Below are positions 7,457 through 23,485 of a stretch of 64,000 bases of DNA, piece after piece. The stretch's first letter is position 1; every line of letters starts with the position of its first letter. Position numbers and translations under genes: made by a program. The DNA is from Flavobacterium stagni. Lineage in GTDB: Bacteria > Bacteroidota > Bacteroidia > Flavobacteriales > Flavobacteriaceae. Under the pieces are notes generated by a model. It had not been told where the DNA came from, ran no database searches, and was given only the letters and a program-made list of their open reading frames with translations. Location: NCBI RefSeq assembly GCF_004122105.1, contig NZ_SBKN01000002.1:310001-374000 (forward strand). Reading direction: 5' to 3'.

Positions 7457-8137
7457 TTACTCGGCCATTCGTTTTAATTTCTGCCTTTCTTTCAAGGCTA
7501 TTTTCTTTCCTATCAATTCGATATATCCGCTTTTGTTGAGCTCAGAGAGCAGGCGGATGCAACTTTCGGTAGCGGTTCCAATCATACCGGCGAGTTCTTC
7601 GCGGGAGAGTTGGATGTGCAACGTGCCGTCTTCGTTTTTACCGAAATTATCTTCCAAATATAATAAAGTTTCTGCTAATCTTTCCTTTACTGTTTTTTGT
7701 GCCATGTTTACCATGTGATCGTCGGCTTCGCGAAGGTCGCCACAAATCGTGCGCATCATATTCATCGAAAAATTGTTGTTCTTGTTGAAGAAACTCATGA
7801 TTTCCGACTTGGGAATGAAGCATACTTGCATGTCTTCAAGGGCCACTGCACTTAAGTTGGTCGGTTCTTCACTAATCAACGAACGCTGTCCCAATAGCTC
7901 GCCAGGCTTGACCAGCTTGACGATTTGGTCTTTGCCATTCGAACTTAATTTCGACAATTTACACACGCCGTCTTTCACACAAAAGACCCCATTAATACTT
8001 TCGCCTTCCTCAAAAATAGGTTCGCCCTTTTTGATGGTATAGGAGGTTTTGCATTCGGCCATGTGGAGCAGTTCGTCCTTAGTTAGTGCCTTCAGGGAAC
8101 TAAATTCCCGTACAATACACTGTTCACATTTGCTCAT
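7457..8137 (-). CDS. Crp/Fnr family transcriptional regulator (FNR-like)
   Basis: The 226-residue protein has a cyclic-nucleotide-binding-type beta-roll (residues about 20-115), a dimerisation helix and a C-terminal winged helix-turn-helix (LSREELAGMIGTATESCIRLLSELNKSGYIEL). In the recognition helix, E and R occupy the places of FNR Glu209 and Arg213, the residues that read TGA/TCA half-sites; FNR Ser212 is replaced by Ile. Cysteines at 4, 7 and 29, with more at 53 and 59, would allow an iron-sulphur oxygen sensor, but the spacing differs from E. coli FNR, so this is inference. Divergent ccoI and the shared palindrome at 8181-8194 point to control of low-oxygen respiration and perhaps of itself. 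Confidence 0.9.
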   Translation of the reverse strand: MSKCEQCIVREFSSLKALTKDELLHMAECKTSYTIKKGEPIFEEGESINGVFCVKDGVCKLSKLSSNGKDQIVKLVKPGELLGQRSLISEEPTNLSAVALEDMQVCFIPKSEIMSFFNKNNNFSMNMMRTICGDLREADDHMVNMAQKTVKERLAETLLYLEDNFGKNEDGTLHIQLSREELAGMIGTATESCIRLLSELNKSGYIELIGKKIALKERQKLKRMAE

Positions 8138-8159
8138 GGAAGTAAGATTTTTGTTACAC

Positions 8160-8167
8160 CAAAGTTA
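8160..8167 (-). promoter_or_regulatory. -7 element of the fnr-like gene
   Basis: Minus-strand TAACTTTG matches TAnnTTTG exactly and ends 22 bp before the ATG at 8137. The palindrome at 8181-8194 is centred 27.5 bp from its last G, so it would cover the -33 region. That arrangement suits autorepression. Confidence 0.6.
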
Positions 8168-8180
8168 GGTAATTATTCGC

Positions 8181-8194
8181 ATGACAAATATCAT
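8181..8194. promoter_or_regulatory. FNR-type operator, site 1 (fnr/ccoI intergenic)
   Basis: ATGACAAATATCAT is a near-perfect palindrome; its complement reads ATGATATTTGTCAT, the same pattern as the sites before ccoS and hemN. It is centred 36.5 bp upstream of the last base of the ccoI -7 element. This spacing is that of a class II activator overlapping the -35/-33 region. Confidence 0.75.
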
Positions 8195-8216
8195 ATTTTA
8201 AAAAAAGTAGGTGTGT

Positions 8217-8224
8217 GACCTTTG
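8217..8224 (+). promoter_or_regulatory. -7 element of ccoI
   Basis: GACCTTTG differs from TAnnTTTG at one base. A weak -7 box is expected at an activator-dependent promoter. It ends 23 bp before the ATG at 8248 and supports that start over the ATG at 8236. Confidence 0.55.
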
Positions 8225-8247
8225 TTACAGGTAAAATGAGCAAAATT

Positions 8248-10629
8248 ATGGACACATCAACATGTTTCCATTGTGGTACGGAAGTAAGTCGGCAAGACGT
8301 CATCCGCTTTGATGAAAAAGATTTTTGTTGCACGGGATGTAAAACCGTGTACGAGATTTTCAGTCAGAACGATTTGACGTGTTATTACGACTTTCAAAGT
8401 GCCCCCGGAGCAACGCCTTCGGACATCAATGGAAAATACGACTTTTTAACCGACGACAAGATCGTCACAAAATTATTGGAATTTGAAGAAGCTTCCACAC
8501 ATATTGTTTCACTGTACATACCGCATATTCACTGTAGCTCGTGTATTTGGATTTTGGAAAATCTACACAAGTTGCAACCGGGTATTGGCAGCTCGCAAGT
8601 AAACTTCCCCGCGAAAACCGTTCGCATCACCTTTAATCCCGATCAGATTTCCCTCAAAACCATCGTGGAATTGTTGAGTTCGATAGGGTATGAACCATAC
8701 ATTAGTCTAGAAAATTACGAAGGCGACAAACACAAAATCGACCGTTCGCTCATTTACAAGATTGGAGTAGCGTTCTTTTCCTTTGGGAACATCATGTTAT
8801 TATCTTTTCCCGAATACTTTGAAGTCGAAGAATTTTGGATCAATCAATACCGCGGATTCTTCCGTTGGTTGATTTTCTTTTTGTCACTACCGCCCTTGGT
8901 GTATTCCGCCAGTGGGTATTATGTGTCGGCATGGAAAAGCATTCGGGCCAAAATGTTGAATATCGAAATTCCGATTGCCCTAGGTATCATCATCATGTTT
9001 GTACGTTCAACCGTCGACATTGTGATGGACTACGGACAGGGATTCTTCGACAGCATGTGCGGGTTGATATTCTTTATGTTGTTGGGGAAATTATTCCAGC
9101 AAAAAACCTACAACTTCCTATCGTTTGAGCGGGATTATAAATCCTATTTCCCGATTGCGATTACCAAAATCTTACCGAATGGGGAAGAAGAACCGGTGCA
9201 AGTATACGACATTGTAAAAGGCGATCGCTTATTGATTCGCAACCAAGAACTCATTCCTGTTGACGGCATATTAATTTCGGAAAAAGCTTCGATCGACTAC
9301 AGTTTTGTGACCGGAGAAGCCGTAGCCATTGAGAAAAAGTCGGGCGACAAAATCTACGCTGGTGGAAAACAAATCGGGAAAGTAATCGAAATGGAAGTCT
9401 TGTTTTCAGTTTCCCAAAGTTATTTGACGCAACTGTGGAGCAATGATGTGTTCCAAAAGAAACTGGAGTCCCAACACAAAAACATCACCGACCGCATTAG
9501 CCATTATTTTACACCGGCATTGCTGCTGTTGGCATTTGTCTCTTTTGCCTTTTGGATTTTCATCAATGTCGATACCGCCTTTAATGTCTTTACAGCGATT
9601 CTAATTGTGGCCTGTCCATGTGCGTTGGCGTTAACCGCTCCTTTTACGTTAGGAAATGTGTTGCGCATTATGGGGAATCGCAAATTGTATTTGAAAAATG
9701 CTTTGGTGATCGAACAAATGGCCAAAGTAGATACGATTGTTTTTGATAAAACGGGTACGATTACCACCAATAAAAAAACGGCCATTACGTATGAAGGCAA
9801 CGAACTCAATAGCGAGGAATTGTATTTGTTGAAAAATACACTTCGGGGTTCGAACCACCCTTTAAGTCGCCGCTTGTACGATTATTTGCCACCCCAAAAA
9901 AAAGCGACCGTCACTCATTTTGAGGAAATCACGGGGAAAGGTGTTTTTGCCACGGTGGAAGGTCATGACATAAAATTAGGTTCGTCCCAATTTTTAAAAC
10001 ACCTCAGTGAAAACACGCACAAGAAAACCAAAGTTCACGTAGAGATTGACGGCGTGTACAAGGGCAGTTATGTGTTCAATAATCAGTACCGCGAAGGCTT
10101 GGAGCAGTTGTTTGACCAACTCAGCACACAGTACCAATTGGTTGTTTTGTCGGGGGATAATGATGGGGAGCGCAAGATATTAGAAAAAATGTTGCCCACA
10201 GGAACCACATTGGTCTTCAATCAAAAACCAGAGGAGAAATTGGCCTACATCGAGACACTCCAAAACCAAGGTAAAAATGTGATGATGGTAGGCGATGGTT
10301 TGAACGATGCAGGAGCCTTGGCGCAGAGTAATATTGGGATTTCGATTTCAGAGAATGTGAATGTGTTTTCGCCCGCCTGTGATGGGATATTGGATGCGAC
10401 CCAGTTTTCAAAAATTGCCTTTTTCATGCAGTATTCCCGCAACGCGATGAAAACGATCTACATGAGTTTTGGCGTGTCGTTGTTGTACAATGTGGTCGGA
10501 CTCAGTTTTGCCGTTACGGGTAATCTTTTACCAATTGTTGCGGCGATTATTATGCCGTTGAGTACGATTACCATTGTGAGTTTCGTGACGCTCATGAGCA
10601 ATTGGTATGCACGTCGGAACTACCGTTAG
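8248..10629 (+). CDS. ccoI: Copper-translocating P-type ATPase for cbb3 oxidase assembly
   Basis: CcoI/FixI moves copper across the inner membrane for insertion into cytochrome cbb3. The 793-residue product has an N-terminal Cys-rich segment (CFHCG, then CCTGC) typical of FixI-type pumps, a heavy-metal-associated domain with HCSSC at 95-99, the intramembrane metal site CPC at 456-458, the phosphorylation site DKTGT from D500, and the hinge GDGLND at 682-687. Eight membrane helices are expected. The longer frame was shortened to MDTSTCFHCG because it follows the -7 element. It sits next to the fnr-like gene and upstream of ccoS, each unit under its own FNR-type site. Confidence 0.95.
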   Translation: MDTSTCFHCGTEVSRQDVIRFDEKDFCCTGCKTVYEIFSQNDLTCYYDFQSAPGATPSDINGKYDFLTDDKIVTKLLEFEEASTHIVSLYIPHIHCSSCIWILENLHKLQPGIGSSQVNFPAKTVRITFNPDQISLKTIVELLSSIGYEPYISLENYEGDKHKIDRSLIYKIGVAFFSFGNIMLLSFPEYFEVEEFWINQYRGFFRWLIFFLSLPPLVYSASGYYVSAWKSIRAKMLNIEIPIALGIIIMFVRSTVDIVMDYGQGFFDSMCGLIFFMLLGKLFQQKTYNFLSFERDYKSYFPIAITKILPNGEEEPVQVYDIVKGDRLLIRNQELIPVDGILISEKASIDYSFVTGEAVAIEKKSGDKIYAGGKQIGKVIEMEVLFSVSQSYLTQLWSNDVFQKKLESQHKNITDRISHYFTPALLLLAFVSFAFWIFINVDTAFNVFTAILIVACPCALALTAPFTLGNVLRIMGNRKLYLKNALVIEQMAKVDTIVFDKTGTITTNKKTAITYEGNELNSEELYLLKNTLRGSNHPLSRRLYDYLPPQKKATVTHFEEITGKGVFATVEGHDIKLGSSQFLKHLSENTHKKTKVHVEIDGVYKGSYVFNNQYREGLEQLFDQLSTQYQLVVLSGDNDGERKILEKMLPTGTTLVFNQKPEEKLAYIETLQNQGKNVMMVGDGLNDAGALAQSNIGISISENVNVFSPACDGILDATQFSKIAFFMQYSRNAMKTIYMSFGVSLLYNVVGLSFAVTGNLLPIVAAIIMPLSTITIVSFVTLMSNWYARRNYR

Positions 10630-10657: not shown

Positions 10658-10671
10658 ATGATAAATGTCAT
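10658..10671. promoter_or_regulatory. FNR-type operator, site 2 (cco operon)
   Basis: ATGATAAATGTCAT is palindromic in its 5-bp arms except one base and matches sites 1 and 3. Its centre lies 36.5 bp upstream of the last G of the ccoS -7 element. Confidence 0.78.
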
Positions 10672-10693: not shown

Positions 10694-10701
10694 TAACTTT
10701 G
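10694..10701 (+). promoter_or_regulatory. -7 element of the ccoS-ccoNO operon
   Basis: TAACTTTG matches TAnnTTTG exactly and ends 17 bp before the ccoS ATG. Confidence 0.7.
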
Positions 10702-22056: not shown

Positions 22057-23421
22057 TCACACTGTCATTGAGAACAACTGCGTCTGTGGCGCAGTGCGTT
22101 GCAAATGCAGGTCAAATGCCATACAAATGTTGCGCACATAAGGTTTACCTTTTTCGGTGATTTGGAGTCCGTTGAGGTGGAACTCCAACAAGCCATCGTG
22201 TTCCATTTCTTGCAAATGGGCAATGACTTCGGGAATTTCATTAAAATACAAGGCGTCGTCTTCCCATTGCGTTTGGAAAGTACACATTAAATTTAAGATA
22301 TGGCGACGGATCACTAAGTCTTCTTCCGTCAAGAGATGACCGCGAAGTATAGGAATTTCATTTTGTTCCAAACGGTCGTAGTAGTCTTCTAAATTCTTTT
22401 CATTTTGGGCAAAACTGTACCAACTGTCCCCAATCGAGGAAACGCCCAAGCCAATCATGACTTTGGTTTTGGTTACCGTATAGCCCATAAAATTGCGGTG
22501 GAGTGTTCCGTTTTGAAACGCCTCATACATGGAGTCGGAGGACAGTGCGAAATGGTCCATCCCAATTTCGTGGTAATGGTGGGTAGCGAGACGTTTTTTA
22601 CCTTCTTCATACAATTGGCGTTTCACGTCGTCTTGTGGCAAATCCTCGTCTTTAAATCCGCGTTGGCCGTTGCCTTTGATCCAAGGCACGTGCGCATAGC
22701 TATAAAATGCCAAGCGGTCGGGGAGGAGCGACTTGGTTTTGTCGATCGTGTCCATCACATCTTCCAGGGTTTGGAACGGGAGTCCGAACACCAAATCATG
22801 GCCAATCGAAGTGTACCCAATTTCGCGCGCCCAAAAGGTTACTTTGGCTACATTATGAAAGGGTTGGATGCGGTGAATAGCGGTTTGAACGGTAGTTGAA
22901 TAATCTTGTACGCCAAAACTCACCCGACGAAAGCCCAAATCATACAGCGTTTGTAAATGCTCGCGTGTGGTATTGTTGGGATGTCCCTCAAAACTAAATT
23001 CGTGATCACGGGCCACATTCGCTTCTTTCAAGATTCCGGTAATCAACCGACGGAGGTTGTCTGGAGAAAAGAAGGTAGGTGTACCGCCACCCAAGTGGAT
23101 TTCGCGGATATTTGGTTTTTTAGGTAATAATTCGCAGTATAAATTCCATTCCTTCAACACCGCAGTAATATAGGGATGTTCGACCTCATGCCGTTTGGTA
23201 ATCCGTTTGTTGCAACCGCAGAAGGTACATAAACTTTCACAAAAAGGGAGGTGAATATAGAGGCTGATGCCCTCCGAACTATTCGTTTCCTTGAAGGCTT
23301 GGATCAAGGTTTTTTCCCATGCAGGTAGCGTGAAATCCGTTTCATTCCAGTAGGGAACGGTGGGATAACTCGTGTACCGTGGACCGGGTACATTGTATTT
23401 CTGGATGAGTGAAGGAGTCAT
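22057..23421 (-). CDS. hemN: Oxygen-independent coproporphyrinogen III oxidase
   Basis: HemN converts coproporphyrinogen III to protoporphyrinogen IX without oxygen, a heme-synthesis step needed at low oxygen. The 454-residue radical SAM enzyme has CESLCTFC at 61-68, giving the CxxxCxxC cluster ligands at 61, 65 and 68, close to E. coli HemN numbering. The opening SLIQKYNVPGPRYTSYPTVP and the EIHLGGGTPTFF SAM-binding stretch are family hallmarks, and the C-terminal HemN domain is complete. The second ATG (23421) was chosen because the first lies only 8 bp from the -7 element. An FNR-type site lies upstream. Confidence 0.97.
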   Translation of the reverse strand: MTPSLIQKYNVPGPRYTSYPTVPYWNETDFTLPAWEKTLIQAFKETNSSEGISLYIHLPFCESLCTFCGCNKRITKRHEVEHPYITAVLKEWNLYCELLPKKPNIREIHLGGGTPTFFSPDNLRRLITGILKEANVARDHEFSFEGHPNNTTREHLQTLYDLGFRRVSFGVQDYSTTVQTAIHRIQPFHNVAKVTFWAREIGYTSIGHDLVFGLPFQTLEDVMDTIDKTKSLLPDRLAFYSYAHVPWIKGNGQRGFKDEDLPQDDVKRQLYEEGKKRLATHHYHEIGMDHFALSSDSMYEAFQNGTLHRNFMGYTVTKTKVMIGLGVSSIGDSWYSFAQNEKNLEDYYDRLEQNEIPILRGHLLTEEDLVIRRHILNLMCTFQTQWEDDALYFNEIPEVIAHLQEMEHDGLLEFHLNGLQITEKGKPYVRNICMAFDLHLQRTAPQTQLFSMTV

Positions 23422-23441: not shown

Positions 23442-23449
23442 CAAAGGTA
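23442..23449 (-). promoter_or_regulatory. -7 element of hemN
   Basis: Minus-strand TACCTTTG matches TAnnTTTG exactly and ends 20 bp before the chosen hemN ATG. Confidence 0.7.
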
Positions 23450-23471: not shown

Positions 23472-23485
23472 ATGATAATTGTCAT
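23472..23485. promoter_or_regulatory. FNR-type operator, site 3 (hemN)
   Basis: ATGATAATTGTCAT matches sites 1 and 2. Its centre lies exactly 36.5 bp upstream of the last G of the hemN -7 element, the same as for ccoI and ccoS. Confidence 0.78.

Follow-up and report, generated by a model that had tools for sequence, protein, structure and literature searches.

A single operator between ccoI and an FNR-like regulator gene in Flavobacterium, predicted to activate the one and repress the other

Results

The window, a 64,000-nucleotide stretch of Flavobacterium stagni DNA (contig NZ_SBKN01000002.1), carries a gene for an FNR-like regulator and, diverging from it, ccoI, which encodes a copper P-type ATPase for cbb3 oxidase assembly. 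The 110-bp region between their start codons (8137 on the minus strand for fnr, 8248 on the plus strand for ccoI) contains one palindromic operator, ATGACAAATATCAT (8181-8194, centre 8187.5), whose pattern TGAYN4RTCA is kept in all 194 distinct fnr/ccoI intergenics that we compared across the genus. We propose with considerable confidence, given the site, its spacing, its conservation and its co-occurrence with the regulator, that it both activates ccoI and represses fnr. The FNR-like protein, active at low oxygen, would bind 8181-8194 in dimeric form. Relative to ccoI, the dimer would stand at -41.5 and act by class II activation on a promoter whose -7 box is weak and which lacks a TTG at -33. 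Relative to fnr, the same protein would occupy -39 to -26 of the core promoter, with its -33-like TTTG, and exclude RNA polymerase, and the active regulator would thereby limit its own level.

The geometry of the two promoters agrees with this proposal. The ccoI -7 box, GACCTTTG (8217-8224, plus strand), is weak, since the first-position T of TAnnTTTG is missing, and is recognised from the TTTG spacing in relatives; the fnr -7 box, TAACTTTG (8160-8167, minus strand, reading from 8167 to 8160), is a complete match and is backed by the relatives' spacing. An earlier sequence-only reading had put these boxes 36.5 bp (ccoI) and 27.5 bp (fnr) from the operator, and both distances proved exact when taken from the centre to the last base of each box. 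Start-site data for Flavobacterium psychrophilum place the TAnnTTTG box at -12 to -5 (PMC9723704). By this rule, transcription of ccoI would start at an A at 8229 (plus strand, leader of 19 bases) and that of fnr at 8155 (minus strand, leader of 18 bases); an A occupies the ccoI position in 86% of 192 promoters. This would put the operator centre at -41.5 with respect to ccoI, as in classical class II promoters, and at -32.5 with respect to fnr, where a regulator's own site overlaps its own core promoter, as in direct negative autoregulation. The same reading had held that the operator covers the fnr -33 region, which was borne out: the operator core reads TTTG on the fnr strand (8185-8188, minus strand), a candidate -33 element at -33 to -30. 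Of the six distinct intergenics with the 27.5-bp spacing, five share this TTTG (this one and four from the F. fontis group, L108 being the exception), and it is a local detail, since the commoner fnr spacings have no TTTG at -33.

The arrangement is rarely produced by base composition. In 20,000 dinucleotide shuffles of the intergenic, the palindrome ATGAYN4RTCAT arose once, TGAYN4RTCA with TTTG at 35.5-37.5 bp twice, and the 14-bp palindrome with TTTG at that distance never. Across the window, the ATGACAAATATCAT 14-mer with up to 3 mismatches was not enriched (11 matches vs 12.9 expected), so that the evidence for the operator lies in its position and conservation. The half-site of E. coli FNR is TTGAT, and the corresponding consensus TTGATN4ATCAA occurs at 28 places in the genome, compared with 4 for the control; the half-site of the operator is different. 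Positive autoregulation of fnr from the shared operator, for which nothing speaks besides the presence of the site, is extremely improbable, and we rejected it on geometry. A centre at -26 to -37, the range found in relatives, suits neither class II (-41.5) nor class I, and FNR-activated promoters in E. coli cluster at -41.5 +/-4 (19 of the 23 with a known start, and one at -60.5; PMC3688515).

Conservation across the genus turned out to be different on the two sides of the operator. We started from 225 genus-level loci, some places or species being represented twice; the sample is not random, since 80 loci belong to the nearest relatives at the protein level, although the 149-genome genus draw is even. 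The divergent fnr/ccoI pairing is present in 220, no ccoI being found upstream in the other five, and these 220 reduce to 194 distinct intergenics, counting the present one. Towards ccoI, the distance from the site centre to TTTG is 36.5 bp in 168 intergenics, 37.5 bp in 15 and 35.5 bp in 9 (192/194), and the box begins with T in only 12 of the 192. Towards fnr, 151 of the 194 have TAnnTTTG at a distance of 21.5-31.5 bp, an overlap layout that puts the site centre at about -26 to -37, with spacings of 23.5 (74 cases), 22.5 (47), 24.5 (14), 21.5 (7) and 27.5 bp (6), and 25.5, 26.5 and 31.5 bp once each. When mapped on the regulator tree (FastTree only), spacing needs a minimum of 7 changes for ccoI vs 37 for fnr over the same 151 overlap rows, and 13 vs 40 over all rows. 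The constraint on the two sides of one site therefore seems asymmetric: activation appears to tolerate hardly a base of variation in spacing, and repression to tolerate more.

The rule weakens outside the genus. Among 14 distinct loci with a divergent ccoI (L300-L304, L318, L134, L135, L138-L142 and L144, L317 being the same place as L144), 12 have the TGAYN4RTCA site and seven of these 12 also TTTG at 35.5-36.5 bp (L300-L304, L140, L142); L139 and L141 have a divergent ccoI and no such site.

The same site and spacing recur before other genes, pointing to a regulon. A second site, ATGATAAATGTCAT (10658-10671, plus strand), precedes ccoS-ccoNO, with a -7 box, again TAACTTTG (10694-10701, plus strand), 36.5 bp from its centre; the ccoNO site was found in 73 of 75 relatives' regions (none upstream of ccoNO in L056 and L083), and TTTG lies at 36.5 bp in 73/73. 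A third, ATGACAATTATCAT in minus reading (23472-23485, minus strand), has its box TACCTTTG (23442-23449, minus strand) at the same distance and stands upstream of a hemN-like gene (about 22057-23421, minus strand), named from its translation without a family search. It is probable that the FNR-like protein also activates ccoS-ccoNO and the hemN-like gene from these single class II sites, and in F. psychrophilum cbb3 oxidase and haem synthesis genes go up under oxygen limitation (PMC9723704). In the whole genome, TGAYN4RTCA with TTTG at 36.5 bp occurs 14 times, compared with once for the reversed control pattern. Judging from translations, the downstream genes include, besides ccoI, ccoS-ccoNO and the hemN-like gene, those for an HMA copper chaperone-like and a ferredoxin/thioredoxin-reductase-like protein, phosphoenolpyruvate carboxykinase, a metallo-beta-lactamase/rhodanese protein, an EF-G-like protein and an outer-membrane protein. 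Five of the 14 arrangements (L150, L153, L158, L159, L160) have no convincing target, and not every downstream gene may be a true one. In 17 chosen genomes, of 33 with the regulator, 58 of 107 site-plus-TTTG matches in a 31-bp range on both strands fall at 36.5 bp (reversed control 3). One class II-type site (L161, at C34:160041), before the metallo-beta-lactamase/rhodanese gene, may belong to another regulator, since a Crp/Fnr-type helix-turn-helix (HTH) match lies about 1.5 kb away.

The regulator co-occurs with ccoI, and the site counts track the regulator gene. The regulator is present at E 1e-60 in 139 of the 149 genus genomes; the remaining 10, together with G021 from another survey (cut-off 1e-40), make 11 genus genomes that have no full regulator match, and 10 of these have no ccoI orthologue, three having only 28-29% identical ATPases. 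The pattern ATGAYAWWTRTCAT gave 150 sites in the 33 genus genomes with the regulator (reversed control 38) and 7 sites in the 11 genomes that lack it (reversed control 4); G016 has the regulator and no ATGAYAWWTRTCAT site because its site begins CTGAC (L091).

Broken or partial fnr copies (L282, L283, L287, L288) were seen in three genomes that have no ccoI orthologue. In G121 the regulator gene is in two pieces with a stop, and an operator lies about 240 bp from the broken copy; G135 and G021 (86% complete) hold only short 3' parts of the gene, which could be cuts at contig ends. Sensor and oxidase system may have been lost together in these three, with contig ends as an alternative cause.

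Several observations weigh against the proposed dual role. In 33 of 194 intergenics (L110-L113, L221, L229, L237-L262, L077), all with a gap of at least 160 bp, the layout is split: the fnr box is 83.5-143.5 bp off, the site stays with ccoI, and none of the 33 intergenics contains a second TGAYN4RTCA site (such second matches occur in 4/194, all of overlap layout). The split layout belongs mostly to species with large genomes, of which F. johnsoniae may be one. A further 10 of 194 intergenics, which the layout count omits, have no TAnnTTTG at 18-32 bp on the fnr side (eight have no exact TAnnTTTG, two have one at 42.5 and 59.5 bp). Together with the 33 split cases, they mark repression as dispensable. 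On the ccoI side, L205 and L234 show no TTTG at 34-39 bp (2/194). Moreover, genome G091 (L281 / L276) keeps ccoI (63%) and a class II site, ATGATTTCAGTCAT, centred 36.5 bp from TTTG, while lacking an orthologue of the regulator. There, the gene divergent from ccoI resembles one for a universal stress protein, and the genome's only Crp/Fnr matches are distant (25% and 21%). Finally, the host genome itself has further Crp/Fnr-type HTH matches, two that pass the cut-off and one that falls short of it.

Since G091 keeps its site without an orthologue of the regulator, another protein can use such a class II site, and together with the other HTH matches this could suggest that a different Crp/Fnr paralogue binds the operator. 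This is quite improbable, because fnr stands beside ccoI in 220 of 225 loci, co-occurs with it across genomes and is tracked by the site counts. A more serious possibility is that the site serves ccoI alone and overlaps the fnr promoter owing to the short intergenic, fnr not being meaningfully regulated. The rigid spacing towards ccoI and the loose one towards fnr, the split intergenics and the G091 site, which accompanies ccoI beside a gene other than fnr, all speak for it. We nevertheless consider it unlikely: where the promoters overlap, the fnr box varies little in position (21.5-27.5 bp in 150 of 151), only three changes between overlap and split layout are needed on the regulator tree, and a dimer sitting on a core promoter would hardly be neutral.

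Activation of ccoI, as predicted by the sequence-only reading, is strongly supported by the class II position, the rigid spacing in 192 of 194 intergenics, the 73/73 at ccoNO and the other genes in this genome. It is very likely because the site and the ccoI spacing are held while the fnr side drifts or splits away, and class II activation at low oxygen by the adjacent FNR-like protein is the best reading, to which we would give a high probability. Self-repression, the other half of that prediction, stands in part. The geometry favours it here (-32.5) and in the 151 overlap intergenics; it fails as a genus-wide rule, since 33 of 194 have a distant fnr box and no second site. In this genome repression of fnr is likely, but it depends on lineage, and species with the split layout are predicted to lack autorepression. 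In this genome, polymerase could also be shut out of fnr by the activated ccoI transcription complex, and not by FNR alone. RNA polymerase covers about -55 to +20, and two footprints from the putative starts at 8155 and 8229, 74 bp apart, would overlap. We regard such interference as the main cause as somewhat unlikely, for FNR at -32.5 should block unaided; the sequence cannot separate the two. Direct autorepression of fnr in this genome is the likely reading, with polymerase interference possibly contributing.

The regulator (7457-8137, minus strand, 226 aa) belongs to the Crp/Fnr superfamily, with PF00027 (cyclic-nucleotide-binding fold) at 76.1 bits and PF13545 (Crp-type HTH) at 60.3 bits, both above cut-off. 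Against NCBIfam PRK11161, which represents FNR proper, it scores 83.9 bits with a curated cut-off of 228, and we therefore keep the name FNR-like. Its best named relative is that of F. fontis (95% identity), and the host genome is Flavobacterium-like. Aligned with E. coli K-12 FNR, its C4, C7 and C106 match C20, C23 and C122, and S13 stands at C29, so that three of the four E. coli-type iron-sulphur (FeS) ligands (20, 23, 29, 122) are present. At C53 (E. coli position 70), all 199 distinct proteins of the genus have Cys. Outside the genus we had 33 protein rows, of which L144 and L317 are one place, leaving 32 distinct; a scan of 158 phylum genomes gave a match at E 1e-25 in 39, with loci drawn from at most the best 30 matches. 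Among these best-scoring matches (the weaker ones, many of them beginning past the N-terminal cysteines, were left out), 29 of 32 carry C4 and C7, and every one of the 29 carries C53 and C106 as well, with no Cys at position 13; L317 and L318 miss all four cysteines, and L319 has C7 and C106 only. In the cyclic-nucleotide-binding fold, the strands bearing C53 and C106 are neighbours. C53 may therefore be a new fourth FeS ligand, a candidate that rests on correlation. Two other cysteines were ruled out: C29 (in this protein's numbering) is Cys in only 157 of the 199 genus proteins, and C132 varies outside the genus.

ccoI (8248-10629, plus strand) was identified by PF12156, PF00403, PF00122 and PF00702 and adjoins ccoS-ccoNO; no NCBIfam equivalog scored above cut-off for its protein. 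Its start at 8248 is favoured over 8215 (GTG) and 8236 (ATG), the latter being in frame here and so a possible alternative; within 25 bases upstream of the ccoI start, an ATG is absent in 74 of the 194 intergenics, out of frame in 67, and in frame and open in 53. The leader AGGTAAAATGAGCAAATT (8229-8248) is well conserved across the genus and may signal the start of translation in this group, which lacks Shine-Dalgarno sites. A sigma-70 promoter scan gave 2 matches vs 1.4 expected, that consensus being uninformative for Bacteroidota, and the same scan found no terminator.

Discussion

The control circuit that we describe is of an ordinary, known type, yet remarkably well conserved across one genus, and the cysteine arrangement with its conserved C53 may be the newer by-product of an otherwise known system. 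Tentatively, we suggest that the Bacteroidota could have an FNR sensor class of their own, with a cluster on C4, C7, C106 and C53, and that in Flavobacterium self-feedback might be turned on or off by lineage according to whether the fnr promoter contacts the ccoI operator. Among the top-listed open-licence papers, judged by title and abstract opening, we found no description of this operator or of a Flavobacterium FNR regulon. With the site and TTTG at 36.5 bp, the probable low-oxygen regulon of Flavobacterium can be defined from sequence and looked for in any genome, and relatives with and without the regulator promoter under its own operator constitute a natural experiment on the cost and benefit of autorepression.

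FixK2 of B. diazoefficiens, from the FNR/FixK group, activates cbb3 oxidase genes. Like the regulator proposed here, it works at low oxygen and reduces its own expression (PMC9104804). The mechanism of FixK2 self-repression is reported there as unknown and possibly indirect, whereas here a direct site is evident, with repression through it predicted. The FNR of A. ferrooxidans similarly keeps C20, C23 and C122 (E. coli numbering) and has Ser at 29, its fourth ligand being discussed as Ser29 or a Cys at position 40 (PMC6659574); the candidate here is C53. In the class II promoters of E. coli (narG, dmsA, nirB), as at ccoI, a palindrome at -41.5 activates low-oxygen genes (PMC3688515). Compared with these FNR promoters, the arrangement in Flavobacterium has the half-site ATGAY, a Bacteroidota -7 box and a site that also overlaps the promoter of the regulator. 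Finally, E. coli FNR shows the same contrast as the one seen here, the position of its sites being fixed when it activates and scattered, with no fixed position, at 16 repressed promoters (PMC3688515).

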